Shown: positions 5,469-59,802 of the stretch, piece by piece
Position numbering within the stretch: the stretch's first letter is position 1
How the letters are laid out: each line of letters starts with the position of its first letter
From: Siphonodentalium dalli
Lineage: Eukaryota; Mollusca; Scaphopoda; Gadilida; Siphonodentaliidae
Assembly (NCBI GenBank): GCA_032622095.1
Contig: CP136067.1
Coordinates: 124,531,030 to 124,595,029 of the forward strand
Reading direction: 5' to 3'
Length of the DNA stretch: 64,000 bases
The notes under the pieces: model-generated
What the model was told of the DNA's origin: nothing
Database searches by the model: none
What the model saw: only the letters and a program-made list of their open reading frames with translations
Program-made: the position numbers and the translations under genes

Positions 5469-5472
5469 ATTA

Positions 5473-6656: not shown

Positions 6657-6660
6657 TTAA

Positions 6661-6867
6661 CCCTTTCAGTGCCAAGTCTGATTTTTGTATCAACCTATAT
6701 TTCCTTTGATCATTTTTCAAATTTATTGATTATAATAATGTGATACATTGATGGAAAGAGCTCTTAGAGTCTTTCCATCAATGTATCACATTATTATAAT
6801 CAATAAATTTGAAAAATGATCAAGGAAATATAGGTTGATACAAAAATTGGAATTGGCACTGAAAGGG
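6661..6867 (+). mobile_element. Family E palindrome (207 bp), TTAA-flanked
   Basis: TTAA at 6657-6660 and 6868-6871. Arms start CCCTTTCAGTGCCAAGTCTG and continue through a near-perfect palindrome of about 100 bp per arm centred near 6762. Same outer end as 26101-26203 but a longer stem. Confidence 0.9.
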
Positions 6868-6892
6868 TTAAGCATATTCAAGATTTTGAGAG

Positions 6893-6985
6893 GCCACAGT
6901 ATGCTAGCATCACTAAATTCAGCCTTCAGGGGACCTCGTTCTGCAAATGTTCAGCATCTTATTCTCAGTCCTGACTCAAACATAT
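6893..6985 (-). mobile_element. Family D relic
   Basis: Contains gctagcatcactaaattcag and ggacctcgttctgcaaatg, the right end of a family D element, decayed. Confidence 0.55.
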
Positions 6986-6999
6986 GGAAGAGTGTCCAC

Positions 7000-7474
7000 T
7001 AAAAAGTTTAGATGCTAAAATCGCAGACACAGGTTGTTTGTCCTGTTCTGTTGTCAAATAAAAGGTCACATTGTGGATCTGTTTTATGCATTAACATACT
7101 TCTAACGGAGATAAGTCAAAGAGAAAACAACGGTCTGTGTATCCCACACCCATGTGCTGTTTATACAACTTTTTATACATATGGAGACAAAAGAATATAT
7201 AATTATCAAAAACAAGGCAACTCTCGTAAACTTTTCTACATGAAACCATCGAGTGTTTTAGATGTGTTGGGAGTTTGACGTAGCGTGAAGTGCTCCCGGA
7301 GCCCAGTAATTATCCGTAGTCAATGAACGATCACGTAGAGTTGATTAACTTCTTATGTTTGCAGGAAATTGTGCTGTAATTGTTTTATTTGAATTGTCTC
7401 GTATTTTTTCATAATTGTTTTTCAATATGTGTATTGTTCTTTGTGTAAGGCCTTCTCAAGTAATTTCTCCGGAT
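7000..7474. other. Unique sequence upstream of family D
   Basis: An 88-codon frame (7012-7278) has no recognisable motif and no splice context. Treated as non-coding. Confidence 0.35.
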
Positions 7475-7895
7475 CACAAGCCTGCAAATAGCGTGTCTGT
7501 CATTTGTAGAATGAGGTTTCCTGAGGGTGAATTTAGTGATGCTATCCCACACAGTGGGCTAGCATCACCAAATTCACCCTCTGGAGACCTCATTCTGCTT
7601 AGGCTTCATCTTCTGGGAAGTATCTAAAGTATCAAATTAACATTGTTTTTAGTTACGTTTTTCCCTTCTGGGAAGTTTCTATATCCCCTAATTTGCGGAA
7701 GATAAAATGCATAATCGAAGTGCCCAATGGGTGAACATCACCAACTTCAACTGGGAAACTTCAATCTGATCCTAGGTTTACCATTGCAGTTGAGGGCCTA
7801 GGCAGAAGGTTTCCAAAAGGTGAATTTGGTGCTGCTAGCCCACTATGCGGGATAGCTTCACTAAATTCACCCTCTGGGGACCTAAACTCAGACTT
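7475..7895 (+). mobile_element. Family D element
   Basis: Left end caagcctgcaaatagcgtgt ctgtcattt, then the palindrome gaatttagtgatgctatccc / gggctagcatcaccaaattc, a middle with cttctgggaagtttctatat and ccaatgggtgaacatcacc, and a second palindrome to 7885. Non-coding; the translated fragments here are shadows. Confidence 0.75.
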
Positions 7896-8076
7896 AGTCA
7901 GTAATGTTAGACATCCATCTCAAGCCTCACTGAAAAAGTTTAATGTTGAACCCACAGGGAGCCTCACACAGATGGAAGCATGCACTATGGTGTGTCGTCT
8001 GCTCCAGTCTATGTGGGGCTCTCTAAGGGTTAGACACACTAAACTCAGGCTTATGTGAGTACCTTATGTCCCTTTA

Positions 8077-8546
8077 CCCCTTTCTATACTGAAAACTCAT
8101 TGCTGAGTACAGTAATGCCCTAAGTAATCGACTCTTTAACTACAGCAGAATTATGGGTAACTTTTCAGGATTTAGTCGGAAATATGGCTTGTTGCCATTC
8201 ATCGGAAAGCTCTCGGGGAGAGCTTTCCGATGAATGGCAACAAGCCATATTTCCGACTAAATCCTGAAAAGTTACCCATAATTCTGCTGTAGTTAAAGAG
8301 TCGATTACTTAGGCCGAGTAGTTACCCCTAAGGGAATGTTCACATAATAAGTTCAACAAACCATCAAAGGTCATTTGTTGAATTTTAAATTATCTGAACA
8401 TTTCCCTCCAATAAATAGGACTCCTTCTGCATTTATATTATCTATAATCTGATTGTTTCCCATAGAAATCCCTCCAGATGAATAATAGACCACTCCAATA
8501 TATACTATTATAGCTGAGTGGGAGAGTCCATTTAGTATAGTAAGGG
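8077..8546 (+). mobile_element. Family B with nested family A
   Basis: Left part ccctttctatactgaaaact is split by a family A palindrome from gttacccctaagggaatgtt; right end ccatttagtatagtaaggg precedes TTAA (8547-8550). B interior includes inverted ataagttcaacaaa / aacttattatctgaacattt. Confidence 0.8.
8110..8316 (+). mobile_element. Family A palindrome, nested in family B
   Basis: Begins CAGTAATGCCCTAAGTAATC. Stem from there to cggaaagctctc, then gagagctttccg mirrored back to gagtcgattacttagg. The last bases of the right end are lost. About 100 bp per arm. Confidence 0.88.
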
Positions 8547-8550
8547 TTAA

Positions 8551-8861
8551 TCTCTATGAATATCTGAGAAAAAATGAACATTTCGATGTACTTTTCTTCT
8601 TTGATAGTGGTACCACTTTGTCTGAACACGGCTTCTATTTGTATAAAAAGTTAGTGTTATTTTGAAGTAGCTGCAATACTATAATTGAATATTCTCCATG
8701 TACATTCCCAAAGGATATCGTGTAATTGCGACCTGACGGAAATATGTTATATTTGGTGTAGCCTTATGATTAAAACACAATAAGCATTGTTTGTTTGAAG
8801 TTAGCGGCGCCGGATTGTTTATCAATATCTCCATATTCGGTTCTAATGTACTTGCAGGAGT
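8551..8861 (+). promoter_or_regulatory. Region just upstream of SoxD coding exon a
   Basis: Mostly unique sequence between a family B element and the start codon. It contains cattgtttgtttg at 8787, which resembles Sox/Fox sites, and a splice-acceptor-like cttgcag just before the ATG. It may be the end of a 5' UTR intron or a proximal promoter; the sequence alone does not decide. Confidence 0.35.
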
Positions 8862-9371
8862 ATGTCCTCAAAGCGAAAGAACACACCCAACAAGCTATAT
8901 AAGGACGACAGTATAGAAGAAAACTCGGCTGAATCAAACAGCGACATCACTAGTGACATAGAAATTGACATTTCTGATCCTATCAGCTCGTATCCGTACT
9001 CAAGGAACTTTATATCTGAGAATAACTCCGATATTGGACTCAATACGCAAGCACAAAAAGGACAGTGCATATCAGGAAGTGAAGCTGATAGCGAATCGGA
9101 ATATCACGCAAGTAATTTGTCGGCAAAATCAGGTTCTCAGAAAAAGTCAATGGAGACTGTTTTGCAGAGGCTCAGTTCTCGACCAATGGAAATGCAGGAT
9201 TCTGATATACATAACAATAACATCGCACCCACGAAAGACAATGGGTCTCAAGTCGTGGACAGTATTCAAAATATCCTGAGTGAGGTTGGTTCTAATCATG
9301 ATAAAGAACAGAGGCTATCAGAGATGATTAACCAACTGCAGAGTCTGAAGGAAAAGCTCACAACCGAGAAG
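8862..9371 (+). CDS. SoxD: SoxD exon a: start codon and N-terminal domain (residues 1-170)
   Basis: The ATG lies 4 nt after a cttgcag acceptor (AG at 8856-8857), so a non-coding upstream exon is likely. Donor AAG|GTTAGT at 9372, phase 0. The product is acidic and Ser/Asn-rich (residues 17-85), then [12 protein letters not shown] (95-106), resembling the conserved SoxD SLADVVDTL stretch. Residues 147-170 contain [20 protein letters not shown], which aligns with the first heptads of the SOX5/6 leucine zipper. MSSKR matches the SOX5 internal start. The only other long reading frame here (8965-9279) is a shadow. Confidence 0.92.
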
Positions 9372-12300
9372 GTTAGTCTCCCCCACCCCCCCAAAATAAT
9401 CTATTTAACCCGTTCATGACAGATGCTTCATGAAATTTGTGAAAACCCTGTGCCAATGCATTATCTTATATATACGATTCTCCCTTTGTGAGCCTCACAT
9501 ATATAAGAGAATACATTGGTCTAACAATATTTCCCTTGACCTTGTTATCCAGTGTATTCTCTTAAAAATGTGAGGCTCCCTATAGGAGACTCACATATTT
9601 AAGAGAACGCACTGGCACAGGATCTTTAATGCTGAATCAGCAGAAAGGGTTAAATAGAAATTGTCATCCTCAAGTCAATATGTGAAAATCACATTTCACA
9701 TTTTTAGTTCAAATTATTTTTACCAAAGACATTGATGGACAGTTGGAAAGTTTCAACTGAAGGAGATACCCCACAGTGGTCAATATCAGTCTCTCAGGAG
9801 CTATGATAAGTGCATCCCCCCTAAAAGGGGTGTAGTGATGATGAGTGTCTTACAATGTGATCTTAACATTTTTTAATTTATAGCGTAAATCATGAAGGAA
9901 ATGCTAGAGATATGTGGTAATAAGTACTTTTATTATGAAAAAAATTCATTTAATTCCGAGTCAAAAATTCGTAAATTTCCAATTTTCGACTTGGGAGTCA
10001 AATTAAGAATTATTCTTACAATACTGATGGTTTTGAATGTGTTCTATCGAAAAGTCTGATAACTTTGTGATATAGTTGAAAAGCTTCAAATTCATGGCGG
10101 GGTGAAATCAGGTTCTAGCATGTTTTATGAGAAAACAAAAAGAATATTTGTGTAAAATTCTTTAATTCACATTTCTTATTCTTAGTGAAAACTGTTTGAA
10201 ATATAATGATAGTAATTCACAAAGAATTCTGTTTATCATTCTTTAACATGTAACTTTGAAAAAGGTTTCCCCCCTTGAGGCGTAACAATTCGAAACCGAA
10301 AGAAAAGAATCCCACACACAGTTATTCTTATTGATCAAATGTAACTCTTAAAAAATAAAAAATGAGTCAGATAGATCTTCCTTTACGGAAAGCCAATTTG
10401 AAGCCTTTCTGTCAAATATGAATCATTTCTAAATTAGCTGTGTTGACCTCCGAGTATTTTTCCTTTAATGATTGCCAGCTAGAAAATATAGATCGTAATC
10501 AATGGGCTTTTGTACAACGAATGTCTATGTATTCTTTATTTCTGATTTGACATTTATTGACTAAATTACAATTGGGGAACCGATAATTAACGAAACTTAA
10601 AATTGAAATATACAACTATTTTAATTTAGGGAGAAGCCAAATTCACACAGCGTCACGAGACAATGTTACTGAATATAATGACATTGTAGTATGATTTAAA
10701 CTTATGTTAGGTTTTCACTATTGAGTTGGAACATAATAGAAGTCAGCATGTGCTGGAATTTCTACTGGACGGGGTACAGTTTAAAGAATAATGGACGTGA
10801 AATGACAATATTCAGCTGTCATATACCGGGCAGCGTCCCAAGAATAACACCTGCATTTTAAAGTGCTATTAATTGAATTATGAAAGGTAGATGTTGATAA
10901 TGGGGCATTGTGATTTGACGAGTCTTGGCCAGCGTTCATAAGCGCAGTGAGCGATTGCCAATGAGGGGATGCCACCAACATACAAGCCACTCGAAACCTC
11001 TTATTGTGAACAATCAGGCTTTATTGTGGGAAAAAGTGTGATTAGGCTTCAGGTATGAGCATCTAAATATGCAGGAATTCACCGATATTGTACTCAATCT
11101 CACGCTTCCGATGCGAATTTAACTGTGAATGCATCAAGTTTGAGCCATATCACAGAGGTCAATACCCAAATAAGTCTCTGCATTTTTCTAGTTTATAACT
11201 TGTATGACTACATGTATAATATTTTTTTTAATTATTTGTTATAGTACAAAATGATTCATTTAAAATCCACTCTGATACCTGAATGAATTTTCCGTATTCA
11301 AATATAAATGGAGAAAAATCTTGCTCAAAGTAGTTATTTTTACAAATATTATATCCAAATCGACAAAACACACCATCATTCTTATATATTAATTAAATAC
11401 AGTTACTCTTGATGGTGAAATAGTTTTTCAAATCGAGAAGTAAATATATACAATTGAATGTAGCTCAGATGATGTTTTTTATGGAGTGGTATGCTTGATT
11501 TGCTTGAGATATATTCAGCGATGTTAGTAGAATGCTACATTCCTCCAGTTGCCTGGATACTTTAAACTTATCAGTTTCGAGCACCTAAACAAGTCCACAA
11601 TATGTCTTTAATATGGAACATTAGCATGTATACTTCATTACATGTACAGGCAACTTGTACTTAAAATTTTAAGTTTAGCCTCAGAATAATAGGACGTAAA
11701 GACAGTCAATTTTAAAACAAGGAAACTTTTCTGAGAATTCAAGGCGGGAGGCTGTGAATGGAATGCTTTGCTGATAACACACCAACTGAGATCTATGGTA
11801 TTTTAACATTTAAAATTGGCAGACAGAATTCTATCATACGAACCTATGTTATAAACAACCAATGAATCTAAAGGGGAAGTTAGCCCGCTATTATTTTCAT
11901 AAAATGTTTTGTTTCGGGACAGATAAAGAAATCAGAAGACAGTATGATAAACAAAGAGGATAAATGTTTATTCAGGGAATCGGGAGCGGAGTGATTTTTC
12001 GACAATCGCTGCCGAATGATTCCATCCATATGTAATGCACGATAGGGATAGAAGCATAAGACATTATCTAATTTGATAATTCACCAGTGACATTTGAACA
12101 ACACTGATAGTGCGGCACTAATGATTGTTTTGCTAAGATGAAAGTTTTCCAGATTTTCTCTTGATTTCTTACCCAACACACATCATTGACCTTTCATTAA
12201 ATGCACACACTTTAATCAAGCCTGAGTTTAGTGTGCCTGTCATTTTCAGAATGAGGTCCCCAGAGGGTGAATTTAGTGACGCTATCCCACATAGCGGGCT

Positions 12301-15300
12301 AGCATCACTAAATTCACCCTCTGGGGACCTCATTCTGCTTAGGCCTCATCTTCTCTTTTCTTTATTATAAAATATCTATAGAAACTTCTTCACATAGATT
12401 CTATTTCTTTTTTAGTTTAGTTTCTCTATATTCCAAAATTGGCAGACGACACATTGCATAATCAAGGTTCCCAATGGGTGTACTTCACAATATTCACCAT
12501 TTGGGAACTTCAATCTGAGTCTCTGTCTCCCATAGCAGATCAGGCCATGCAGAATGAAGTTCACAGAGGGTGAATTTAGTGATGCTAGCCTGCTATGCAG
12601 GATAGCGTCACTAAATTCACCCTCTGGGGACCTCATTCTACAAATGACAGGCACACTAAACTCAGACTTGACTTTAACACATTATTTCTCTATGGGAACA
12701 ACTGTTGTCTAACTATAATAGCAGCGGACAAAATCATGTTATAGTTTCCTCTTACAAACTATATCCAGAAATTTAAAGACATATTATGCACTTGTTTGGT
12801 GCTTGAAACTGATAACTGGAGGAATATAGCATTCTACTAAACATCGCCGAAAATCTCAAGCAAATTGAAAATACCACTTAATAGAAAACATCATCTGAAC
12901 TATGCTCAATTGTAAATATTTACTTCTCCATGTTATTATCAGCGATAAACTAATGAAAACGATTTCACTATTGAGAGTCACTGCATTTAATTAATATATG
13001 AGAATGACAGTGTGTGTTGTCAATTTGGATAATATTTGTAAATATAACGATACTTTATGCAAGATTGTTCTCCATTTCTATTTGATCACCTTTTACCAGA
13101 GTGTTTCACATCACTTTAAGTGAATGTTTTTATACATTTTCCAAAAAGTATTTCCCCAGTGGGAAATATCATTTTCTTTCTTTCTTCTCAGTTTTGTGTA
13201 AATTTCTTACCTAGCAAATTAATTAGGAATATTCAGAGAAGCCTATTCTCAGAAAATATCGCATTTCTATCAACAAAATGAAATTTCAGACAAAAGTATA
13301 GGGAAATACTATAATGAAATTTCTTTAAAACCTCCACAAAATCATGAAACTAGAATAGAAATTTTGTTGAATTTTTCAGTGTTTACATTGTCTTATCAAT
13401 GGCTGTCACATTGAGGCTAACTAGGACATAAAACATGAGGAATAAGAAAAGAATTGCCGCTTGTTTGTTTTATTGTGTCTTTGTTATTCTATAGTGGGGA
13501 GCTAAAAAGACGAGAATTGGGGGCTAATTGTGCAGGCCTTATCTCCATGGGCAGATTTACTGGGAAGGGTGCTGTCAGCCTCCCCTAACAAATCATACTG
13601 TATTGGCTGCATATCTGGCCAGACTTTATCCAGATGTGCCTCATTATGATCTACATCATCTATTCATTTAGAGCAACAGCTTTTGATTTCTAGTTCATTA
13701 TTGCGAATCAATTTGCCCCTCCCCACATTCAGACCATTCCTATTGGAATCTGAAGTTACCTAAATGTTAAACATTTTCAAAGCAGTACCCTCTATAGGAC
13801 CAGAAATATGCCAACTGCAGCCATGTGAGTTGCAAATTAGATTGATCGCTGTTGAAACTATAACAAATATTCAATTCATTATCCGAAAACCCGACACTTT
13901 ACGCTAAATATTGGTCGAAAAATTTAAATATTAGAGCTATGTAGACCTATTTTTCAGTGTGTTCCTGTGTTTAATAGCCTTTCGCAAATTCTTACTATTA
14001 ATTGTAAAATAGCTGAAAATGAGAATTTTACAAACTTCTCAGATATTTTCTTTCTTTCCCTAGTTCACTAGGTTATGACAGATATTGAATAGTGTGAGCT
14101 TGGAACATTTTGTTTTTATTTTTGTACAAATTTCACAAAATTGAGTAATATTGCCCTAAAACATCAAACTAAAAATTATTACAAAATATTGTAGTTCGAG
14201 AATCTGAATTTTTATCAAATCTGTAGAATCTGTTTGCTAAATTTCTCCAATCTGCCAAATCATGATCCAAATTGAATGCCTGATGGGGAACATAACTTGT
14301 GATTTGGTTTATATTGGGAGTGAATTGATGAGAAACCATCAGGGAATGGGTGGAACAATAGACATTCCATCACATTCACTTGTTCCATTAAGTCGAGTGA
14401 CCAAACGACGGAATCGTGCTTGATTGGTTCTATAGACAACTCAACGTCAGCGCTCTCTCAAGCAGCAACTCGAACCTCAGAACAATCGTCTACGAAAATA
14501 ACGCTCGCGCTACGAGAATAAAAGCCAGAAATGCAGGGAATAAAAGCCAGGAATACGACAGGAAATAGAATGGAAAGCGCTCTGTTTAAAACTTCATAAA
14601 CAATATGGCCACATTTGCCTCTTAGGGAATGCCGGGCACAGCTTCCATTATTCCCACTAACAACAATAATAGATTCGTCAAAGAGAGCTCTGAAGCAGAC
14701 CTTAATTCTAATCTATCGGCCGATTCGACAACAAAAACTCATGCTTTTCTCTTAAGCACTACGATTGCTAATGGAAAGCGGAGCACTCTCCTCCACGAAG
14801 TTTCTATGATTGGTCCAAACAATGAACTTTGGAAGCTTTAGGCAAGCGGAAGTTAGGCTACTTTAACCCAAATTGGTGGAATTTTTCTCTGACAACGTAC
14901 AATATATGAAGTGTTAGAGAATTTTTTATAATCAGACATGTTAACCTTCCATCCAAAAATTGCTCTTTAATTGGTACAACCAATGAATTTTGGACTTTAG
15001 GCAGGCAGAAGTTAGGCTAATTTAACCCAATTTGGTGGGATTCTGTGTGACGTAGTCCAATAAATTAAATGCTAGAAACTTTTATTTGCTGCCATATTAA
15101 CCTTCCGTCCAAAAATTTCCATTTAATTGGTTCACACAATTAATTTTGGAAGCTTTTGGCAAAGTTGAATCTAGTATATCCCAATTTGGTAGAATTTTTC
15201 CCTGACACAATTTATGAACTATCAGAAACTATAATATGCAGATACAATTAGTTTTTAATGATTGGATACTCGTTGATGTGTAGTTACTTTATTCCCATTC

Positions 15301-18300
15301 ATTCATTTGTAGGTATGTTCGGATAATAAGACTGTACTTTGTTTGTTTAGCTTATTTGTTGAAGTTTTGACTAAACATTGTCAAATGAATGAATTAAAAA
15401 GCTTTATCCTTAACCCTTTACCCAACAAACCGGCCAAAACCGGCCAAATAAAGCTGCAACAGCCTAAATTATCTTGGGTCTGTCTCAATAAAACCATACA
15501 AATATGGATATCATTGGAACCGGCTCATTGACCACATTGTGATAGTTACAGTTATGCCCTGTGCCAATGCATTCTCTTATATATGCGAGTCGACCATAGG
15601 TCGCCTCGTATATATAAGAGAATGCATTGGCCTAAAAAAAATCTTTTTTTACCATTTTTTCTTACATTCTTTAACAATTTTATAATTTTTAATGTGTTAA
15701 GCCAATGCATTCTCTTATATATGCGAGGCGACCTATGGTCGACTCGCATATATAAGAGAATGCATTGGCACAGGGCCCTTCTGTTGGGTAAAGGGTTAAG
15801 GTGTATTATCAAATGTTCATTGTAGCTAACATTAAATGAGGACATTTTTTGCTATAAAATTACCATTTTACTTATCAATTAGATATTAAAACATTTTTTA
15901 AATTTCAGACAAGAACTGATGAAATTCAATCAAGCAATTCTGGTGAGTTATTAAATAAATTTATATTAAATCCCCCCCTCCACCTGTAGCCATGGCTTGA
16001 TGGTCTACACTTACTCACACTTTACATGTAGTCATTTGCTTAGATAGCATATGATTTTATTTTTTGTTTTGGCAAAAGTAGGATAATTTGTTAAGTAAAC
16101 TATTAAATTAAATTGGTCTGGCCGATTAAACATTTAGATTTGCCCTATTAAAAGAAAAAAAAACTGTTTTCAGGCTATTAAGATTGTTTTGTTCAGATGA
16201 CTTATCCAGATCATTTAGAAATCTCTTTTAATGAAATTTAAACAAAGGGTATCATTTTTCTTACGCTAAAAGAATCGCAACCCTAATCTGTCTTTGACAC
16301 GATTCTTGAAAGAATTCCGTTTTGTGCACACATGTCTTTGAAATAAATTTTTAAACAACCGCTTTCTGATTGTATCAGTGAAAAAAATACGGCAACACAC
16401 CTAACACTCAATTACTAATAGAGGGTTCAGTCTTTGTTTCCCGTCTTTGAACATGTTTCATAAGTAATTCTTTCATAAAATGTGGAAGATGCAAAGGACT
16501 CATGCTAGGACAATTTAATAAGAAAACGTATTACATCATTATGAAGTTTATGTGCAAACTTTAATTTTCGTTTTGGTGCCTCACAGATTAAGCATTAAAA
16601 TGGTGCACACAGATGTGATCGGCAGTATTTTAATTAAGCGCTTTATGTTAATTGAGCTTGGTCCACTTAAGAATTTCTTTGATAAACTTATTTACAAGTA
16701 TGCTCTCTTTCTTCTCCGCTAATACGATCATAAAAGAAAATTGATGAAGAATTGTGATAGTGACTGCCACTGGAGAAATATCTTTGAAATAATTTGTTTC
16801 AAATGTACGACAAGTGAGAATAGATTTAACCGAGATTTTATTATATACGATAACCAACATGTTCCCATTATCTTATAATCTATTGTAGCCCGTCCTCTCT
16901 CCACATTATGCTTCCCTCTTATATTATCTCTGATGAGGCCCCATAAAACAATCATATACCAAATCTCTCAATCTTGTTGTTCAAAGAAAATCAAGCAATT
17001 TATCGATAGACTCCTGTATCTACACCCCTATAAACAGAAGAGTTTTCAGCAGAGGAATGTCATCCCGGATGTTCGGTGCTTAGGTGTGTGGGTGTTAACA
17101 ATGTAGTCGGAGTTCGTACCGCGTTGCAATGGGAGTGACGTTCTACACGAACGTCTGACGGCAAGATTTTGTCTAGCAAATAATCTATAAATTAGTGTTT
17201 TTTGACCTACAGTCAATTTCTCTTAATTGAATATCCCTTAATTGCATATATTGAATATTTGCATAAAATTTGCTTGTATGTGTGATTTTTGGGGTGAATA
17301 ACAACCTGTAATTAATAATCGGGCAAGATTGTTAAAATTGGCTTTAAATTCACCAAAAGACCTCTATATGGTTACAAATTTAAAAAATGGGGATCATGTG
17401 TGTCTAAATTTTTAATTGAAAGCAGCTAGTTAGAATTGTAAAAAATTCAACTCTTGGGTCTAAAATCACCCAATTGGGATGAGTACAGATAATGTCATAG
17501 TGACATCTGAGAACATGTCTTAGGATTAAGCGCTGTTTTAGCTAATCATAATAGATCTTTTGCTTAAGCTACAGTATATAAACATGGTTTATTCATATGA
17601 TAACCATTTTGGTATGATTTCACTGATAATGGTGTGTAACTTATCGGTTGTTTAGTACCATATCTAGTTGAATTTAGTGAATGTCATTGAATGACATGGC
17701 ATTTGTTCATTACAAAACATGGGCGCAGGCCAACTATTCAGAGTCTGACACTGATATATGTTGCCCTGAACATTAATTGAAGTTTCATGGTGATCGGTCA
17801 AGAGACATTGTCTATCAGTTTTGACGGGAAATTATATGTGCCATAAATTATTTTTTTTAAATAACAAAAGTCACGTCATGAAATTCTTTTATAGACGATT
17901 ATAGGGGAACTTTCTTGCACGGTTAAGGAGTCGATTACTTAGAGCATTACTGTAGTTCCCTTAGGAAATGTTCAGATAATAAGTTCAAAGGTTATTTGTT
18001 GATTATATTATCTGAACATTTCCCTCCAATTAATAATAGACCATTCTGATGTATACTTTTACAACTGAGTGGGAGAATCCATTTAGTAAAGAAAGGGTTA
18101 ATAGATTGCTAGAGGAACTTAAAGCAATGAAATAGTAAGCTATTGTCTCGATTGGAAACAAAGAAGCAAATAAGTCATGGAAACAGTAAACTATTGTCCC
18201 AAAAATAATGAAAATATAGAAAATATAGAAAATTGTGTTTGTAGCATTCTAAAGAGTTACATTCCTGATCATATCTCAATGAGCTGTTTGTGTTCAACAC

Positions 18301-21300
18301 ATTACATTTAATACATCCCAGAATTCCTGCAAACAATCAAACTATTATCAACGAAAACACAGAGCAGAGGTTTAATGTCCAGCAAAAGGAAATGGAAAAC
18401 ATATGCAAATCCGTTACTAAGAGTCTTCCATGGGAGGCTCGAAAGTCTCTTGTTAATGAACTACAGAAGCCCCTGTTTGATGAAACTATGGACAATTTCT
18501 CCTCACACTGGGGTTCCTGGTCCATATAATACTGGGCTCTTTGTAAGTCACATTATCAGTAGATTAGAACTCAGATAATGGGCAAGCATGCTTGTGAAAT
18601 ATTGTTCTGGGTAGATAAGAAACCCTGGGTTTTATAAGAAGGGCCTTTCTATCTTCCATAAAGTACTCCCCTTTGTCATGGGTGCCTGTGAATATTTTAC
18701 TGTTGCTATCAAGCATTCATCTTGTCTGCTTCGTATCTTTGGTGCTTCCCCGGACAAGAGTTTGGGAGAAGAATCGGTCGACTTCAAAGGACGTCTCTAT
18801 AGGAAAGATACAATAAATCTGGCACGTTTGTTCCCCGTTCCGTTATAATCACTGATTAATAATACTAAGGACTGTTTCAGTCTCTTTATTATGTAGATTA
18901 TTAATACGCCTTATGATTCAAAGGAGAATTAAACACTTAGGAATACAAACATAATGATCAGGAAACCAGCAGCATGTGGTTTACAATCTATTAATCAAGG
19001 CGATCCTCACAAAACGCTGAGTTAAGTTTCAGTAAACACCGTCTCAGGAGTCAGAACAAACACTAGCGAATATACATGTTTCGTCCAACCTTCTGAGAAA
19101 ACTAAATATATAATTTCAAACGTAAAAGGAAATCAGACTGGATTTCAGGTGTTAATTAGAAATGTATTATTTTTAAGGTGATTCTCAGAAAATGCTGGGT
19201 AAAGTTGAGTGAACATAGCCCAGTCTGAGCACACCTACTACCCGAATGTTTCATCCCAATTATTTAGCATAATTTCAATTTATTATTATACTTTTACACC
19301 AAATATGGTCAAGTGTATACATACATAATATGGAAACATAATTTATAACAATGTAGTGATAGGACATGTATTCATAAGTTCATTTGTGGTCTTGACACAA
19401 TATGTCGCACATAATATTGTAGTGATATATATTTGTAAGGAGTTTGGTTTTATTCGTCTTATTGGGAATTTGCATTCGTCTGGTTGCGTATTCTGTCTAG
19501 TAGTTGGTCGCTAGGTGCCATTTTCCCTTTTTGGCAAGTCCGTGGTAGAAAAATGGGCAATTGCTTTTAGTACGTTCGGTTGTGAGCATGTCATTATTTG
19601 TTTAAATTGAGCTATTCCATCTAATTCTTGGGTGTCTTTCGGTAGTTGTTTGAAGAGAGATTGACATTCGATTGATAGTAGTGAGCAACTTAGAAACTTA
19701 GCAAGCTGAATATTTTTTAAATAAAGAAGATATTAAGAAAATCAATCGCACATCATATTTCAGGCAAGCATCGATTTTAAGGTTATTTTCATAAAATGCT
19801 GAATAAAACTCAGGTACTAAACTGAAAACTCCCACATAGCGGGCTAGCATCACTATATTCACCCTCTGGGGACCTCATTCATCTTCTCTGGAAAGTTTCT
19901 TTATTAACACATTTCTATAGAAACTTCTTCACATAGATTCTATTTTTTTTTTTGGTTTAGTTTCTCTATATCCCCAAATTGGCAGATGACACATTGCATA
20001 ATCGAGGTTCCCAAAGGGTGTACATCACAATATTCACCATTTGGGAACTTCAATCTGAGTCTGTGTCTCCCATAGCAGATGAGGCCATGCAGAATGAGGT
20101 CCCTAGAGGGTGAATTTGGTGATGCTAGCATGCTATGCGGGATAGCATCACTAAATTCACCATCTGTGGGACCTCATTCTGCAATTGACAGGCACACTAA
20201 ACTATGGCTTGACTTCAAGGCTTGTCTGAACCTGTTTTCCAGTATGAAATTTTCAACTTCCTGTGAAATTATTAAATGGAATTCAATAACAGCTCTTTGA
20301 AAATATTTTACTCATGACAGTACTACTCCAAGCTTTGTGCTTTGGATGTGAAAATAGTACAAAATGCAACAATGTCATTGTTATAATTTATTGTTGTACC
20401 TGGTGTTTTGGTTCTAGTCAACTGTCAACATGGTAGTATGACAATAAAGCCGACAAAAATCATTTAGCTGTCAGGCTTTTTTTTTGGCGGCAGACGTCAA
20501 AACATACCATTAATGATGGACAATAGGACACACATACCATAGATGCTTCCATGTCATATACGCTCGAACCCTATTGGTGCACACACACCTCTATAGGTGC
20601 CGTTTTCTGGCAATTACTATCATTTCTCAATTTTATTTCTGATCAAATTCTGGATGCGGATGTTTCGTAAAACCCAGTTGTTTGTTGCATTAGGAAAGGA
20701 ATGTTCACAGAAACTAGGTTCTGTTTCAACACTGCTATTAAAGCTATTAAGGTTTAGTGAATCACTGAATATTTTAGATTGCTATGCAAGGTAAGTTTTA
20801 CAGGGGCATGGACAGCTGCTGCTCTTTCTCTCCTTGGGGGGTGGGGGAGTACAGTAATGCTCTAATTAATCGACCCTTAACCACAGCAGAATTATGGGTA
20901 ACTTTTCAGGATTTAGTCGGAAATATGGCTTGTTGCCATTCATCGGAAAGCTCTCCCTGAGAGCTTTCCGATGAATGGCAACAAGCCATATATCCGACTA
21001 AATCCTGAAAAGTTACCCATAATTCTGCTGTGGTTAAGGGGTCGATTAATTAGGGCATTACTGTAAGTCTTGAAATAGTGTGTTTGTCATTTGCGGACTG
21101 AGGTCCCCAGAGGGTGAATTTAGTGATGCTACCCTGCACAGTGGACTAGCATAACCAAATTCACCTTCTGGGGACCTCATTCTGCTTAGGCCTCATCTTC
21201 TGGGAAGTATCTGTAGTCTCAAATTAACATTGATTTTAGTAACTTTTTCCATTCTGTTCAGTTTCTATATCACTAATAGCTGAACATCACAAACTGGGGA

Positions 21301-45300: not shown

Positions 45301-48300
45301 TCATTGCATTTAATTGTGTTAGTTTATCGATGATAATTTCGTCCAAAAAGGAGATGTAAATATTTACAATTGAGCGTAGTTCAGCCTCTGTTTTTTATGG
45401 TCAATTTATTTGAAATTTTCAGCGATGTTAGTAGAATGCTACATTATCCAGGTTGGCATAGCACCTGAGTACTAACTTATCAATTTCATGCACCCGAATA
45501 AGTCAATAATATGTCTTTAAGTTATCCAAAAGATTGTTTAGTTCAACAATGATGGTCATAGCTATTTTTTTTTTTTTTTAGAAATGAAGTTATATCTTCA
45601 AAGATATAGAATTGACGAAATTCAACAAAACTTACATTAACTTAAGTGCCTCTTTAATTTTGTTCACACTTCCTTGTTTTTAGTTTTAACATTAAACACT
45701 TGTTCCGACAAAAATGAATCTATTTTTATCTTACAAAATAATAATATTATTTACCAGATCACAATTTGAGTTTTGTGTTCGGTGATTTTCAAGGTTAACA
45801 TTTATATGGGCCCTTAGAAATGATAGCCGTAATATTGCACTAAAAATAAATGTTTCCTGTTTTCTTTTTAAATTTAGTGCATCAAGGCCAAGGGTGGTGT
45901 AAAATTAGATTTTATTCAATCAAAACATGTTCCTATCTACTTCTACAGTAATGCTCTAAATAATCGACTCCTTAACCATAGCAGAATTATGGGTAACTTT
46001 TCAGGATTTAGTCGGAAATATGGCTTGTTGCCATTCATCGGAAAGCTCTCAGCTAAGGAATCCTGAGTTTAGTGTGCCTGTCATTTGCAGAATGAGGTCC
46101 CCAGAGGGTGAATTTAGTGATGCTATCCTGGGCTAGCATCACTAAATTCTCATTCTCCTTAGGAGACGGCAGGTAGACAACCTTCTTGGTTATGCTGTCC
46201 CCGATAGCTCATTGAATGTTATACTATTACACTGTGTATATAATTGTAAATATCATATGAATGAGTTATGAATAAATAATCATAGTCATAGTCATAGTCA
46301 TCTTCTCTGGAAAGTTTCTTTATTATAAAAATTCTACAGAAACTTCTTCACATAGATTCTATTTCATTTTTAGTTTAGTTTCTCTATATCCCCAAATTGG
46401 CAGATGACACATTGCATAATTGAGGTTCCCAATAGGTGCACATCACCATATTCACCATTTGGGAACTACAATATAGATGAGGCCTAAGCAGTATGAGGTC
46501 CCCAGAGGGTAAATTTGGTGATGCTATCCCATTATGCGGGTTAGCGTCACTAAATTCACCCTCTGGGGACCTCATTCTGCAATTGACACACTAAACTCAG
46601 TAAGTAATATAATAAACCTTTTAAAATGTCACAGAGGGAAAATAGATAGGTGTATAAGTGTTCATTGGTCCAATTGGATGATACATGGAATGTCGCTTTC
46701 ATTAAAAATCATAATAAAATAGAATGTGACAAGAAGCGTGGATTTTAAACTTTAAATTGTATCATTCTTCATCTGACATATTCAATCATAATACGTAGAC
46801 GTTTTTTCAGACAGGTACCTTAATCTGAACTAGCAACCATGACTTTGTTGAGTTTTGTGACAATGCAGGCTTTTGTTTCCTCGGGACTTAATGGTACTGA
46901 AAAACTAGACACTGCTCACGCTTGCGAGTAGAGCTTTTCTCATGTCACCCTCCCGCTGTGACGGGATTACAGGCATACTTTGATTGTTGAAGATAGATAT
47001 TAATTAAAATCCGCGTGACACATGTCTATTAAAATCGTCATTGTCCTACGATATTGAACCATTTGCTGTATGCTCGTTGTAAAGAAAGAGCTTATATGCA
47101 GCTGTTAAATTAATGCAAAGTGTACTTTAAGTTTATCTAATCATAATTTGTACTAGTTATGTGGTATCTAAAAAATTATTGTCACAAATTGAATCGGCTT
47201 AAAGTTTAAATGGATCTATATACATGCATTTTTGTTTGCGTAATTTTCGACATAGCTAAGGCCTTCGATTAGCAATTTGTCAAGTAAAATAAGTTGGAAT
47301 CTCTGAAAATTCTTTGCGAATTAGTACAGAATTATACTTGTGTGTTTTGTAATTACAATCTGTATCATGATTATTATAAGATAATATATAATGAAGATAT
47401 CTGGAAGATATTTATGTTGAAATTGAATCCGCTTTGTATTCAATTTGGACAATATGTACACAAGAATTTTAATTTATCATTTCTAACATAAGGCCTTTGA
47501 TTATCAATTTGTTAGATAAAACCAGTTCAAATCTCAGTATATCCCTCCAATTATTTCAGTTGAATATCTTTACCAGGACAAATCGTTTTTTCACTCTAAG
47601 TAGTTGGTTGTAAAATGACTAATACATTGTGTCCATCAAAACATAATTTAGGTCTTGTGTGAGTCATAAAAATTAAATGCTACTTTAAATTTCGGATGTT
47701 CATTATGGAGGTCTATGGTCCACATGATTTATGGGGGATAATAAAAGGTCAATACAACGGAGAATAGGAAGGCAGTACATTCTGTTTGCAATATTGTTAA
47801 AAAAATTAATGCCTCAGGGCTGTGTAGTTAATATTGTCCAAAAAAACATAATGATTATAAATTACATTGTTCATTTTTTGTTATTCCGGAAAAATATCCA
47901 CAATTCGACAATATTCCCGAACACCCTCAAGCATTTGGCTGCAATTTATTGAAATGATGAGAGAAACATTAGAATTTATCAGATGCCAAATCAGATTTTT
48001 TTCATGTTTCACAATAGTTTCGAACCTTAATTTGATTTTTTTTTAAATCATCACTTTATTATTGGCAGTTCCCTAAGTCATTTCGGTAACTGTTATATTT
48101 TACAAATTCCTTCAGGGGTAAAATTTATCATAGTCATCTATAATACTCTTGTCAGAACTGGTCAGGTGTTTCGTTCTATCGTCAGTCCTGTGGGTCCTGT
48201 CAGTATAAAGAATGAAGACATCATTATTAAAATGCACCTCAAAAAGCACAATTATGTTTAAATTGGGAGTTAAACTTATAAATTGTTGCTCTGTGATGTA

Positions 48301-51300
48301 TTGTGACGATGAAGCTGAAGATTGCGATAAGAGTAGAATCAGAAGCGCCCACAATAACACGCATTATTGTCCCGTGGTCGTTAAAATGTGGTTACAATGC
48401 CTCCACACAATGCGTTTGATCACATCTTTTTGATACCTCGTCCATGTCTCGATTGCTGTGTCATTAAATGAAATATTGAATTAAATTCATATTTTATCAT
48501 ATATTACAATTTATAACTTTTAGGATGGTGAGAACAGACTTCATTCTTCTCCGGTTGCATTGTTGTCATATCTCTGTTTATATTAACCCCAGCATGGCAA
48601 CATGATACCCTAAATAATCAACTCCTTAACCACAGCATTATTATGGGTAACTTTTCAGGATTTAGTCGGAAATATGGCTTGTTGCCATTCATCGGAAAGC
48701 TCTCAGTGAGAGCTCTCCGATGAATGGCAACAAGCCATATTTCCGACTAAATCCTGAAAAGTTACCCATAATAATGCTGTGGTTAAGGAGTCAATTATTT
48801 AGGACATTACTGCGGGCGTAGCATGATCGAGTCCAGGACCCAAATAACCTAAAACTTCAAATGCGTATATTGAAGCCCACCCATACCATTGTTACTCTAC
48901 AGCAAAATACTAAATTCATTATTATAGGGCAGTCTTGTGGGGGGGGGGGGGGGGGCAGACCTCCTCATTTGTAGATTAAAGGCAGTCAGCAATGAATTTG
49001 GGAATCTTTTTACCACAAATAAATGTTCAGTATATTTTCTGCCTCTTTTTTTTAAATTGACTAGAACTTTGGTCTGGAAATAGTGGCTGAAGTATCGGGG
49101 GGAGGGGGGTGGGGGTGGCACCAATCAGATATTACCTGATCTCAGTATCATCTCGCACCTCATAGAAAATCTTTCCAAAAACGTTTATTGTATGAAATTA
49201 CCTCTAATGATTTCATGAGACCAAATGTTACTTCTTTTCTCATGCAATACTTTTACAAGGGTTAAAAAAGAATGTCTCAGAACGACGGTTTGATTTCATT
49301 CTTATGTAAAGCGGACCCGTTTGTTCACTGCAAGACACTTTTGTACCCACGCAGTAGAATTGGCTATATATTGAGGCGAGGCTTCTATCGCACCGGGATG
49401 GCCCACTGACGACAATAGTCAGTACACATCTTTTTATCGGCAAACAATTATTACAACTTAATGTCGAGAAGTTTCTCATAGCGAGTCGCAACAATAAACA
49501 TGACCTGTTTAATATGTAGAGGTAATCAGCGCTTGAGTGGGCTCCAGCTTTGTCATCGACGACGCTGCAATTTGGGTGGATCTCGTTCCTCGCATTGTTG
49601 CCGCTCAATAAAAGGCTCCCTATACAGCCTTGAAATAGTGTGTCTGTCATTTGCAGAATGAGGTCCCCAGAGGGTGAATTTAGTGATGCTACCCCGCATA
49701 GCGGGCTAGCATCACCAAATTCACCCTCTGGGGACCTCATTCTGCTGACGTATAAGCAGAATGATGTCCCCAGAGGGTGAATTTGGTGATGCTAGCCCGC
49801 TATGCGGGGTAGCATCACTAAATTCACCCTCTGGGGACCTCATTCTGCAAATGACAGACTTGCTAATAAAAGGTTTGCTGTATAATAGACACTTGTATTG
49901 TCAGTTACGCTTTGTCATTTCACTGTGAAATGTACACTCAGTTTGATTGTGGTTTGAAATAAAAATTAAAACATTTTTATAGTCAGTGTAGGTGGAAAAA
50001 TCAGATTTCCGTCTCGTCTCCCCTTGTAAACTTATCATTTATAGGTGAAAGGATGCACATTTTAGATGACTAATATTGTCAATTAAAAAGGAGCTTCAGC
50101 TTTTATACTTGTGTGCGTGTGTGAATTCAGATTTGCCATACTGTGAAATTCTTTTAGATATTCCTATACTAAATATTCATTGATGATTAGTTCCATTAGG
50201 AAATATTCTGATAATAAGTTCAGTTCAACAAACGACCATATGTCATTTATTGAACTTATTATGTGAAAAATTCCCACCAATTAATATGGAACCTTTTACA
50301 ATTGTATGATCTTTACATTGGTCTGTCGTCTGCTTTTATTACCTGAACATCCCTCCAAATGAATAATAGACCATTCCAATGTGTAGTTTTATGACAGGGT
50401 GAGAGAATCCATTTAGTATAGAAAGGGAGATAATGCTAGTTGTTGCTTCTATCACCATCCAAAACCTTTGACATCATACAGTAATACCCTAAATAATCGA
50501 CTCCTTAACCACAGCAGAATTATGGGTAACTTTTCAGGATTTTGTTGGAAATATGGCTTGTTGCCATTCATCGGAAAGCTCTCATTGAGCTTGTAAACCA
50601 GTGCATTCTTTTATATATGGTACTCACATAAAAATATAAGAGAATGCACTGGCACAGGGTCTTTAATGCTCCACCAGCAGTAATTTCTCAGTGAGAGCTT
50701 TCCGATGAATGGCAACAAGCCATATTTCTGACTAAATCCTGAAAAGTTACCCATAATTCTGCTGTGGTTAAGGAGTCGATTATTTAGGACATTACTGTAT
50801 ATCAGCATGACATGCCCCAGACAAACTCATATTTAGAGGCCCCGGTTATTGACGCCTTCATTATCTATATATAGAACCATTTTTATAAATGATCCATGGA
50901 ATAAAATAGGAACTTAAGTTTCCACTAAAATGGTAAAAAATTACACACAACTGTTCCCCCTTTTTCTCCCATAAAACATTGTGCAGAACTGAAATGCAAA
51001 TTGCATTTTAACTATAGTTCTCTCATTTCATTAAAAAAAATATAGTTAATATTAACATGTATGATGTAATTTGGGGCTCCAGAAATGTAATATAAATCAT
51101 CCAGATTTTCTATAGTGTCTGTTGTCATGACAACAAACAGGTTACTGGTACAATATTACATTCTGAAGCTCTCTAATATTAACCTATTTGAAAAAAATAG
51201 TTAATATTAACATGTATGATGTAATTTGGGGCTCCATAAATTTAATATAAATCTTTCAGTTTTTAACACGTAAAAAATTTCAATAGTGTCTGTTGTCATG

Positions 51301-54300
51301 ACAAAAAACAGGTTACTGGTACAATATTACATTCTGAAGCTCTCTAATATTAACCTATTTGAAAAAAATAGTTAATATTAACATGTATGATGTAATTTGG
51401 GGCTCCATAAATTTAATATAAATCTTTCAGTTTTTAACACATAAAAAATTTCAATAGTGTCTGTTGTCATGACAAAAAACAGGTTACTAGTACAAGATTA
51501 CAAACTGAAGCTCTCTAATATTAACCTCAAATAAACTGAGGCCCCCATAAGATAACCTTGAGGCAAGTATGGTCATGGACCAATGAGAATTATATCGGAA
51601 TGCCGATGAGAGCCAAGTCTTGTATAAACGCAGTGTCTTTCAGCCCGCCGCATATCAAAACAGGGTGGAGATCCCCACTCGTGACCTTTTGTTGTATTGT
51701 AGTCGCGGGTCATTATATATTGCGACTACACCTCCCTGTTCTATCTCTATTGAAATACACTTTACTTGTATTGTTACGGGGAGTATACCACTGCTTTCTT
51801 ATTCTGCGCCGCCATGGATGGCTTCCTCGCACTCGAGATAATGCAGCCATAAAGATTCGCCGGGCCATGAAATTCTTTTCACAAAAATCAAGCTGCATTG
51901 AACCGAAGTCTTAACACTTCGGGGAAGATTCATTTCAATATACATATTTCTTGTTTATTAAAGAATAAAAAGCTACAATTCCCGTTTTTTAATAAAACTG
52001 AATAACTAAACAATACATGAGAAAACTTTTTGTTGAAATTCTCATAAGGTAGGCTTCCATTAAGAAGTATTTTTGTTCTTAAAGTCGTTGCTAGCATGAA
52101 AGGGGTTAAATGCTTTTAAATTTTCCTCCTAATAATGCTAATTGTATGTGGTTTCTCTGTGCGGAATATCTCTGTATGGGTGTTTCAACAATGGAGATAT
52201 ATAATATGCACAAGCCTTTCCTTTGTACTTTTTATGGCAATCACTGGACAGAAAACATATAGGGTCTGCCTATACAAAGTTATCCTACAGTCGTATTGTG
52301 TATTCTCCCATGTTATTATATTATGATAGGGCTCTTCGGGATATATTGCAATGCAGCAGGGTAAGTTGTGGTTCCAAATGTTGGCACATTGTGTGGTATT
52401 AGATTAATATTAGAAGGCTAATAGACTAATAGGCTTAAAAGGAGGTACTTTTTCACACTGAAATTCAGCACATTTTGAATCTCAAGTTGAATTCATGAAA
52501 TTTAGGTTGTTTCCCTTAAATTCATATCCATATTTTTTATTTTATTTTCCTCTTCCTGATTTTTGAAGTTCTTTTAACATAAGTTATTTGGGATTTCTGA
52601 TTTGTTGATCAACATTGAGAAATTTATAACAAATCTTAAACAGTTGTAATTATTTATTTATTTGTTTATTTATAAATTTAGTATTTTGTTTGAAAATATC
52701 TAAATGTAATATAAGAAAATTAAGAATGTCTTAATGAAACTGGAATGATTTTAGAAGATACTGAATTTAGAATTTCAAAAATAATCTGGAAAGCAATTCA
52801 CAGAAAGGATTACATTACTATACTGGCCGGTGTAATATTCAGAAGAATTATATTTAAAAAATCTAAATTCAAATCTTGAAACTTTATTACTGTTATAAAT
52901 AAATATTTTTCCATTCATCTTGTTAACTTTCATAACTTTTCCTAGAAATTAAGAAACATAACTTTTGGTATTTTAAATGTGCCAAAACAAAATGACTAAT
53001 AACAAGTGGTCTGAAATATTACTTTAAAGGTACTCAATCCGTAAAGAGGGTCCCCATCTCAACAGATTCCAACAACAACAATCCGATCAGAGGGTCCTAA
53101 ATTCAAATCTTGAAACTTTATTACTGTTATAAATAAATATTTTTCCATTCATCTTGTTAACTTTCATAACTTTTCCTAGAAATTAAGAAACATAACTTTT
53201 GGTATTTTAAATGTGCCAAAACAAAATGACTAATAACAAGTGGTCTGAAATATTACTTTAAAGGTACTCAATCCGTAAAGAGGGTCCCCATCTCAACAGA
53301 TTCCAACAACAACAATCCGATCAGATTTACTATTTCTTTGGCTTTGGGGGTAAAAAATATTTTATTCGAGTCGAGGAACCCATCAAACAAAGCTCAGAGT
53401 TATTAGATATTGATTTTTGAAATTTGTTATTAACTCGAGATGAGTACTAATAACTGCCGTAATCTGCTCTGGATGTGTACTCCAAATCTATTCAAACAGA
53501 CAAGGATGGATAACTCTAAAATCAAGTGGTAATTTTAACGCAATTTTGACTGAGTTCTGGGCCAGATAGTATTCCCGATAATGAAAAATAATAGATTTCT
53601 AAAATCGATATCTAACAAATCTGAGCTTTGATGGGTGACTTCCTCGACTCGAATCAAATATTTTTGACCACCGAAGCCATTGAAATAGTAATTGAGAGGA
53701 GTTTTATCGGATTGAGTACCTTTAAAGTCAAATATGTATGGAACCATACTGGGATTTTTTTAGCCAATGACTGCTGACGACTGGTGTTGAAAATGGGCCC
53801 CATTCCTAATGGGAAATAGTTAGATTTCCCAATTTCTCACCCGAAAATTCTGAATTAACAGAAACCAAAACGGGACTTTGACTTCTTTTTATAGGAGTAA
53901 AACAGGTAGAAATATCCCTGCCATATTTTTCTCATGTGTTTTTCAGGTGCCAGGTTTTTCAGGTGCATTATCGTAAATATGCGATCCTCACATAAATAAG
54001 AAAATACTCCTTATGGGAGACTTGCATATATTAGAGAATGCACAGGGTTTTATTAAACTTTCAGGAAGCCTCTGTTAACAGTGCTCATTAACCTGGTTAA
54101 TATAACTTTAATATAAATTCTTCCATTTCAGTCTCGCCATCCACACACAGTGCTCACATGTCCCCTCAAGCTCAGTCCCCCATCCTCTCTTCTAACTCAC
54201 GGAACACGCCTGTATCACCGCAGCCAGCCAGATCGCCATACAGCTCATATCCTCACTCATCGGCATCGCCCACGATGCGACAGAGCAGTCCCGTCATGCC

Positions 54301-57300
54301 CATGCTGCCGATCCCCATGTGGATGAACCCTCAGATGCCAATCATACCAACGAACCCGGATCAAGACACGCCTTTAAACCTAACGAAGCCCAGATCCATG
54401 ATGATAAAATCGGAGAGAGATCATTTACTTGACAACTCGTCTCTCGGAGGTGCGAGGCCAAAATTGGAGGTTGTTTTAACTCCACCCCCTGCTCATAGCA
54501 ACCATAAACGGGAATCACTGCAGTCGCAGTCATCACAACAACAGATAACGCCGACAGTCGTGCCACCACAGACAACGCCTCTCGCCATCCATCCACACTT
54601 CGGACTTCCAGCTCAATTCATGAACAATCCTTATTTGGGACTAGCAAGTCACCTTCAGGTTTCAACAGCTCTCGGAAATCTGGCGACACATCATGGATAT
54701 AATGGGAATCCCTCGCCGACTGATTCTGAAAAGGTAAATATACATGTATGTACCACTATTTATAACCATTTTCTGTCTTGTTTTACAGTAATGCCCTAAC
54801 TAATCGACTCCTTAACCACAGCAGAATTATGGGTAACTTTTCAGGATTTAGTCGAAAATATGGCTTGTTGCCATTCATCGGAAAGCTCTCACCAACAAGC
54901 CATATTTTCGACTAAATCCTGAAAAGTTACCCATAATTCTGCTGTGGTTAAGGAGTCGATTATTTAGGGCATTACTGTACCACTATTTATAACCATTTTC
55001 TGTCTTGTTTTAACTGGATATATCCACACCCTCCTCCGGAGTATCTACCCCATCCAAAAACCAGAGATTAAAAAAAAAATTCTCAGAACATTTAATTGAA
55101 ATATGGGACAGACAACTGAACCGAAAAATATTTTTCACTTGTGAATTTCTTTGGATATTTGGACAATTTTTTATACCTGTCTGTCTGTCTGTCAAGGCCA
55201 GTGAGTCATGGGTTATCAGATCTGAATGAAATTTTTTCATCTGGAAATATTGGTTTTATGTCCGTCCGGTCATATAATCTCAGCCATGGGTTATCTGATC
55301 TGAATGAGATTTGGTACGGAGGATCACCATCATGACTGCTTTCAAAAGAGGGCCAAATGACCGTGTTTTCTATTCTAGAGTTATCCTCTTTGCTTATCTG
55401 GAAATAGTGGTTTTCTATCCATCCTGGCATATATGAGCCATGGGTTATCTGATCTGAATGATATGGTTTGAACAATTACCATCATGACTGATTACAAATT
55501 ATGTTAGTGTTTCCCATTCTAGAGTTATTCTTCAGATATTTGGAAATATTTTTGTCCGTCATTACAGATATTTCAGCCATGGTTCTTTTTTTTGTTGACA
55601 GGAATCTATGGTGCAGGACTTATTGTCTCGACAACTTGCTCAATCTGTCAGCGGTCCCGTGTTCCCCGGATTGCCGCTGCCTATGTATGCGTCTCCGCAG
55701 ACGACAAGCATTTCCCAGCTGTCTCAGCTAAGTGCAGGCCTTACCAGCATGCAGAGTGCCAAGAACTCCCTCGGCGCGACCGACGACAAGAACGATAGCT
55801 ACGTGCAGCATCTTCAAAGTGAGTAATATTAAATCGGCCTGGTTTAGATGTCATAAGTTTAGTAGTATAATTATTGAAAGTGCGATTGCAATTGTATTCA
55901 GTATACAGTAATACGGGGAGAGCTTTCCGATGAATGGCAACAAGCCATATTTCCGACTAAATCCTGAAAAGTTACCCATAATTCTGCTGTGGTTAAGAAG
56001 TCGATTATTTCGGGCATTACTGTATATATCTTTCCTGAACTTTCTGTATAGATTTGGGGAGTATAAACTAATTAATTATTAAAAAAATTTATTGAGAGAC
56101 CAGTCAACAGTAGGTTCTATCACTTGGAAATAATTTTCTATGAATTTATAGGACAGAAAAAAAAGAAACAAAAAAAGAAACATCACACAATTTATACTTG
56201 GAAATCTTATTGAGTGAAATATGTGAAAAAATAGATGTTTTTCATGTGTTTGTTTTTTGCTAATACAAATTGAAATGTGCCTTGAAAAGAAGTTACATAG
56301 AAATTTTTTTGTTGTTGTTGTATGTACATGCTTGCTGAAAGAGATAGAGCATCTTTAAACTGCAGATAGAACTCAATCAAGTGCATAATTAGCAGTAAAA
56401 CTAACGAGAAAATCAATGTATATTTTTCAGCAAAACTAATGTGAATAATTGACTCCCTATTACTTGATAACACATAAAATACCAAAAGATTACAGGCAAA
56501 ATGATTCGCTAAAGCCTCTGGTGTCAATCATTTAACCTTTCCATGACTGGAGCTTCCTGAAATTTTACAAAAACCATTTGCCAATGCATTCTCTTATATA
56601 TGCGAGAATACATTGGCCTAACAATGTATACCTTGACATTGTAAACCAATGTATTCTATTATATATGCAAGGCTCCCTATCGCAGACTCGCATATATAAG
56701 AGAATGCATATGTGATGGTTGTCTAAACTTTTTCAGTGGTTTCAGGAAAAATGTTTGGTGCCAAAATAATCCGGTCTAACAAAGAGAAGAACGACCCAGA
56801 GAAGCCACATATAAAACGACCAATGAACGCCTTCATGGTGTGGGCTCGTGAAGAACGACGAAAAATCCTCAAGGCGTGTCCAGACATGCATAACTCAAAT
56901 ATCAGCAAAATCTTAGGTGAGTTCACTTCCCACCTCATGAACTGAATAGATGGGCATTCACTGACAAAATATGACATGTGGAATATAAGCTTTGCATACA
57001 TTTAACCCTTTGAGTGCCAGGGGCCGATATTATCGGCCCTAAACCTACACAATAAGTCTGTTAAAGAATATAATAAAATATATTAAAATTGTAAAAAAAA
57101 AAAAAAAATTGTTAAGCCAATGCATTCTCTTATATATGCGAGGCGACCTATGGTCGACTTGCATATATAAGAGAATGCATTGGCACATGGTATCTGGGTT
57201 GATACAAAAATCGGACCTGGCACTCAAAGGGTTAACAAACAAAGTCATATACAAAGTAATTTTGTTATTGAAAATTTACTGTGTTAATTATGGGTGCCTC

Positions 57301-59802: not shown

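Follow-up and report, generated by a model that had tools for sequence, protein, structure and literature searches.

Results

A SoxD-like gene and its repeats

The window analysed here, that is the whole stretch of 64 kb, is animal DNA, and all our results come from this single window. The elements described below lie in or near a SoxD-like gene, whose open frames, with approximate limits, are found on the + strand at 8847-9416, 54101-54796, 55599-55823, 56727-56942, 57640-57800, 58139-58432 and 59446-59799. The HMG box was recognised by match in the exon frame 56727-56942, for which SOX-5 is the best match among solved structures (E = 4.6e-19); the neighbouring frames are presumably SoxD-like exons. 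A scan of the window with Rfam at the gathering thresholds and a tRNA search both returned no matches, and the same was true of the exact patterns searched in a viral contig collection (three patterns) and a genome contig collection (two patterns), neither of them animal.

The window holds repeats of several other kinds. A 234-bp unit is tandemly duplicated at 52863-53325 with 100% matches. A tandem array of ~41-bp units occupies 21516-21937, and many of its units carry a terminus like that of the B elements described below (AACCCTTTCTATACT or near). A separate repeat family has copies at 49626-49877, 12215-12677, 19830-20218, 7477-7883, 46298-46600 and 57967-58224, the first of these being palindromic (GAATGAGGTCCCCAGAGGGTGAATTT...).

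Families of TTAA-flanked elements with CCCTTT ends

With at most one mismatch, the terminus TTAACCCTTT occurs 50 times in the window against 9.0 expected, a count reached in none of 100 shuffles, and the hairpin arm AATGCATTCTCTTATATATG, with at most three mismatches, occurs 47 times against 0.04 expected; a chance origin of these repeats was therefore rejected. All 21 exact copies of TTAACCCTTT could be placed by eye at element ends, and 14 of them are both ends of seven complete elements. By pairing TTAA-flanked inverted ends, by module searches and by reading of the sequence we compiled 15 complete elements, plus several partial C copies, with element lengths of 111-428 bp. The families differ in the bases that follow CCCTTT: E continues with CAGTGCC (two complete elements), C' with ACCCAAC (three), C'' with GAGTGCC (two), C with CATGAC (six) and B with CTATAC (two). 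These families, as proposed in an earlier note on this DNA, are real, and the range of 6657-59399 given for them there is too narrow, with copies also at 477, 1056, 4757, 5470, 62120 and 62673-63014.

Exact TTAA stands on both sides of 14 of the 15 complete elements, a figure that is partly selected, as 10 of the 15 came from a search requiring TTAA; the one exception is the right flank of the C element 33797-34204 (+ strand), which reads TTAC. The terminal inverted repeats match at 13-16 of 16 positions in the 10 elements listed by the TTAA-flanked inverted-end search. Most ends begin CCCT; some C copies differ there by one base, and the starts of the B copies are degenerate. Having a TTAA target site, terminal CC[C/T]T and a small non-coding body, as piggyBac-superfamily MITEs do, these TTAA/CCCTTT elements are non-autonomous piggyBac-type MITEs.

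Two of the families have simple bodies or weak ends. The E element at 6657-6871 is palindromic and without the hairpin core described below, and that at 26097-26207 is a 111-bp palindrome with a stem of 52 pairs; both have TTAA on either side. The B elements, likewise between two TTAA, lie at 62120-62381 and 5470-5729, the latter with the ends CACTTTCTATACT and AACTTTTCTATACT. Family B is present and weaker than had been claimed: exact TTAACCCTTTCTATACTAAATGGA is absent from the window, and the best two of its six matches have one mismatch.

One hairpin core stands behind different ends

Family C is built around an inverted pair of subterminal hairpins (CCCTGTGCC followed by AATGCATTCTCTTATATATGCGAG...), its core running from CCCTGTGCC through a hairpin of ~69 bp (DNA fold z = -16.0), a spacer and a second hairpin to GGCACAGGG. 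The core comes in an alpha form, with a short spacer and a TCCC loop, and a beta form, with a long A/T spacer and a GTCGACCATAGGTCGC loop. Alpha cores are found in the C elements 4757-5005 (- strand), 9405-9653 (+) and 23118-23328 (+, right end degenerate), and alpha-like hairpins in the partial C element 56532-56709 (+); a further partial copy, 477-594 (+), consists of a left end and a hairpin. The beta core, full or half, was found in seven elements and behind three kinds of ends: C ends in 33797-34204 and in the degenerate 1056-1468 (+), which has a beta-type right loop, an intermediate left loop, a left target of TTAT and no right terminus that we could find; C' ends in 15410-15799 (-, short end on the right), 38406-38831 (+) and 58999-59399 (+, whole-element fold z = -22.8); and C'' ends in 26545-26783 and 57002-57235 (both +), each with half a core and an E-like right end. 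The long A/T spacer is present in C 33797, C 1056, C' and C'' and absent from the five other readable C cores (4757, 9405, 23118, 56532 and 62811).

We compared 10 beta-core junctions in 38 pairs, the degenerate C 1056 and all alpha cores being left out. Between families (28 pairs), identity averages 0.972 (minimum 0.946) over the 74 bp inside the core and 0.31 (maximum 0.46) over the 24 bp outside it; for the 10 pairs that set one side of a family against its other side, the values are 0.976 and 0.30. That the same hairpin core lies behind C, C' and C'' ends, as the earlier note had it, is borne out by this comparison, and so is its statement that E-type ends occur on a C core: the right end of C'' matches E at 95.1% over 41 bp in copy 57002 and at 90.9% over 44 columns in copy 26545, and both E copies are themselves without a beta-type core. 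Given the fall from inside to outside and the E-like right end of C'', the mosaicism of ends and cores is real and its boundary is sharp. Over its final 105 bp the C'' core agrees with four other beta cores at 0.83-0.85, which singles out none as the nearest, and the long end of C' (~150 bp) forms a module for which the search, at the E-value used, returned nothing but C' copies. The recurrence of each junction in several loci (three C', two C'' and two pogo-like) led us to reject, by inference, a chimera of the assembly.

Phylogeny and pairing of the hairpins

The hairpin tree has 24 rows and 76 columns, and its bootstrap had not settled; it leaves out the element at 40434, whose hairpins are destroyed by an insertion, and the fragments 2125, 54007, 56532 left and 23118 right. 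Separate trees of ends and cores had been suggested as a check, which does not decide the matter here: alpha hairpins (C and pogo-like) are split from beta hairpins (C33797, C1056, C' and C'') at 94/88, yet a single clade of all C hairpins is not rejected by the AU test (p = 0.10), so that the hairpin tree alone is no proof of discordance. No branch reaches the star threshold, and the right hairpin of the alpha C element 4757 is placed on the beta side. A clade of C33797, C' and C'' is not rejected either (p = 0.12, or 0.24 when C1056 right is added). C' as one clade is rejected (p = 0.011, one identical set being left free), which we take to stem from differences between left and right hairpins and not to prove exchange. 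Our argument rests on the sharp boundary and on the spacer more than on this tree.

Base pairing in the hairpin was counted over 22 rows (21 distinct), the two of 32077 being left out. Paired cells make up 92.9% against 90.2% in shuffles, and 16 cells show a double change against 6.7, neither value being reached in any of 500 shuffles; two of the five measures are not clearly above the shuffles, namely how many pairs show a double change (5 against 3.3; 66 of 500 shuffles as high) and how many further pair types there are (257 of 500 as high). Of the 16 double-change cells, 12 belong to two loop pairs and may go back to one inherited change. The kept pairing could result from selection, from self-templated correction or from one inherited loop change.

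A C hairpin inside a TA-flanked element

A family of TA-flanked palindromic MITEs with the ends CAGTAATGCCC is common in the window; its TA target and CAGT-starting inverted repeats resemble those of pogo/Tc1-mariner-like MITEs, and the family is putatively pogo-like. TA is also seen in the flanks of the copies 20852, 42695, 54786 and 40503. Members of this family interrupt the first hairpin of the C elements 32077-32458 (+) and 40434-40861 (+), the insertion in the latter being flanked by TA. The copy at 50477-50799 (both TA counted) has TA on both sides, as a TA target duplication would leave it, and carries a C-type right hairpin at the centre of its palindrome. This copy shares 215 bp at 94.4% with 62673-62883, within a locus (62673-63014) where one half of a pogo-like MITE (62673-62778) is fused to a C element ending in TTAA at 63014. 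The two loci have the junction in common, at which CATTGAG is, by eye, a possible microhomology of ~7 bp, and they may reflect one event. A C hairpin thus lies, at least once, inside an element of a different target-site type.

Probable founding exchanges and later spread

Among the three C' copies, identities are 0.93-0.96 for the short end, 0.91-0.98 for the core and 0.95-0.99 for the long end; in core and long end no two copies are closer than 15410 and 58999, which also tie for the highest short-end identity. Divergence is thus much the same in the ends as in the core, as though a single founding mosaic had later multiplied to give C', though three copies make this no more than suggestive.

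Joined flanks of every complete TTAA element but B 5470 (14 of 15), and of the pogo-like 50477, gave 15 queries for unoccupied sites, and spanning paralogues were found for one of them, the C'' element 26545, and for none of the other 14. This element sits at a TTAA within a repeat, four unoccupied paralogous copies of which span the site at 74-81% identity (E = 6e-79 to 7e-53); in three of the four, the alignment shows a single TTAA there. Because the paralogous repeats are unoccupied at TTAA, the C'' mosaic at 26545 probably moved there as one unit. We infer at least three founding exchanges, involving the C' ends, the C''/E-like ends and the TA-flanked pogo-like MITE. The repeated swapping that had been read from these elements is better described as a small number of founding exchanges with later spread, the ends and core of C' having diverged alike.

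Open reading frames and the question of the transposase

The window has 125 stop-to-stop ORFs of 68 aa or more, and among the 111 that were scanned, the search for a transposase gene that had been recommended found none, the only Pfam matches being to two HMG-box models, one ORF each; the other 14 overlap MITEs, and 60 of the 185 ORFs of at least 60 aa are shorter than 68 aa. In a Pfam scan of 10 ORFs, a single match to a DUF was weak (E = 0.082) and did not reach the cut-off of that model.

Over the 20 bp past CCCTTT, the C, C', E and B ends agree with one another at 0.25-0.40, and the C'' ends agree at 0.15-0.30 with C, C' and B and at 0.60-0.90 with E, the sole alike pair. CC[C/T]T within terminal inverted repeats of 12-19 bp is given as a hallmark of the whole piggyBac superfamily, and three different autonomous coral elements begin CCCTTT (PMC2872659); a piggyBac survey reports low conservation of the terminal repeats, the printed figures being 33-46% inside a clade and 45-83% from clade to clade (PMC10813416), so that CCCTTT alone cannot show a single transposase. 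The idea of one transposase serving all these elements is accordingly not sustained: apart from C''/E the families differ past CCCTTT, the motif is of superfamily type, and the ORFs scanned contain no transposase.

Discussion

Origin of the mosaics

Our preferred reading, to which we assign a probability of roughly 0.62, is that the C beta core was joined to other CCCTTT ends and to the pogo-like MITE through repair at palindromes, and that the resulting mosaics then transposed. DNA synthesis can stall where long inverted repeats are extruded, and template-switching repair at such places can join a core to foreign ends. On this view the ends of two further CCCTTT families, C' and C''/E, would have acquired the beta C core by copying or joining, and a C hairpin would have been copied into the centre of the unrelated TA-flanked MITE. 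The likely step would be a switch of template, or else ectopic conversion, while palindromes were being repaired, the parts being joined close to the base of the long inverted repeat; each mosaic would then have spread as a unit, its ends being used at TTAA by transposases. When C' 58999 is folded, its long-range core stem begins a single base to the outside of the shared boundary, as the template-switch view would predict. Against this reading stand the small sample, seven elements with a full or half beta core in one window of 64 kb, the AU result for the C hairpins, the placement of the 4757 right hairpin, and the microhomology at the junctions, which, judged by eye, is short. We infer the template switch, the acting transposases and the direction, with C as the donor, the last of these conditionally because the module search found no core-free C' donor in the window; the present data do not tell template switching apart from gene conversion or from a nested insertion that later suffered a deletion.

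Descent of all families from one ancestral MITE, the core of which was kept as an aid to transposition while the ends diverged, seems unlikely to us. It agrees with the hairpin pairing kept above the shuffled level, and the authors of the coral CMITE study suggest that the internal region may matter for transposition (PMC2872659); against this, identity falls abruptly, from 97% to 31%, at a single position, the ~150-bp long end of C' is a module matched by C' copies only, and the right end of C'', 95% like E, has separate relatives.

Two further readings were weighed. If one transposase served all ends and paired those of different elements, by composite transposition followed by internal deletion, the TTAA and CCCTTT-type ends common to all families would be accounted for, as would the divergence of the two C'' ends after ~20 bp. 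We consider this improbable, as agreement beyond CCCTTT is so low outside C''/E (0.15-0.40), CCCTTT is found in distinct autonomous coral elements (PMC2872659), the scanned ORFs yielded no such enzyme, and the C end modules have no match inside C' or C''. A core that was itself a transposable unit and inserted into different MITEs fits a shared unit that is an inverted repeat and begins at the same CCCTGTGCC in several contexts, and is in our judgement likewise improbable: by eye there is no target duplication at the core boundaries, C'' carries half a core only, and none of the copies inspected is a free-standing core outside MITE sequence.

Returning to joining through repair at palindromes, a broader form of it can be put forward only as a tentative and rather doubtful suggestion, namely that extrudable hairpin cores might be copyable modules that pass between TTAA/piggyBac-type and TA/pogo-like superfamilies by template switching at palindromes, making new MITE families behind the ends of an active transposase. 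The finding bears on how MITE families originate. If cores and ends recombine, MITEs are not classifiable by internal sequence alone, and a family could switch transposase and yet keep its body.

Relation to known elements

The earlier note knew of no description of such a pattern, which is wrong for the pattern in general, since the coral CMITEs (PMC2872659) and Galileo of Drosophila (PMC3573991) are of the same kind. In the CMITEs, reported in 2010, the ends vary more from family to family than the interior does, an arrangement whose origin the authors left open in the sections available (PMC2872659). Like the CMITEs of Acropora, as those sections describe them, the elements of our window have a TTAA target, are non-coding, have CCCTTT-type ends that differ between families and are more conserved inside than at the ends across families (here 0.972 against 0.31 in 28 pairs); the Acropora set likewise includes an element with mismatched end and core, AP824033492, and a composite made by insertion (PMC2872659). 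The CMITEs are ~100 bp long with a core of 75 bp, whereas here the elements measure 111-428 bp and the core consists of two hairpins and their spacer; and, unlike the CMITEs as there described, a piece of the core is here also found in a TA-flanked MITE (PMC2872659).

The internal sequence itself is not the same: the printed 60-bp CMITE core consensus, compared with the window by blast, gave as its best match an exact 12-mer (E = 0.15). This 12-mer, CATTGACGAGTA, lies at 5494 and 62144 (E = 0.15 each), 24 bp inside the TTAA of B-type ends, and a 10-base match is found at 21495 on the - strand; it is possibly a subterminal motif shared by TTAA elements across phyla, or chance.

In Galileo of Drosophila mojavensis, chimeras combine the ends of one subfamily with the interior of another, which its authors ascribe to ectopic recombination and conversion (PMC3573991). 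Our elements resemble it in having copies whose ends and internal region come from different groups; they differ in their TTAA flanks, Galileo being a member of the P superfamily with a 7-bp target duplication and long terminal inverted repeats, and the exchange there being among subfamilies of one element, as far as the available sections go (PMC3573991). The literature searched, in which precedents may be missed, yielded none for cores shared across superfamilies, and we do not claim the pogo-like capture as unprecedented. The coral CMITE pattern, unexplained there, recurs here with unrelated sequence, and the present elements add to it a hairpin captured by an element with another type of target site and, in the unoccupied paralogous site, an indication that a mosaic has moved.
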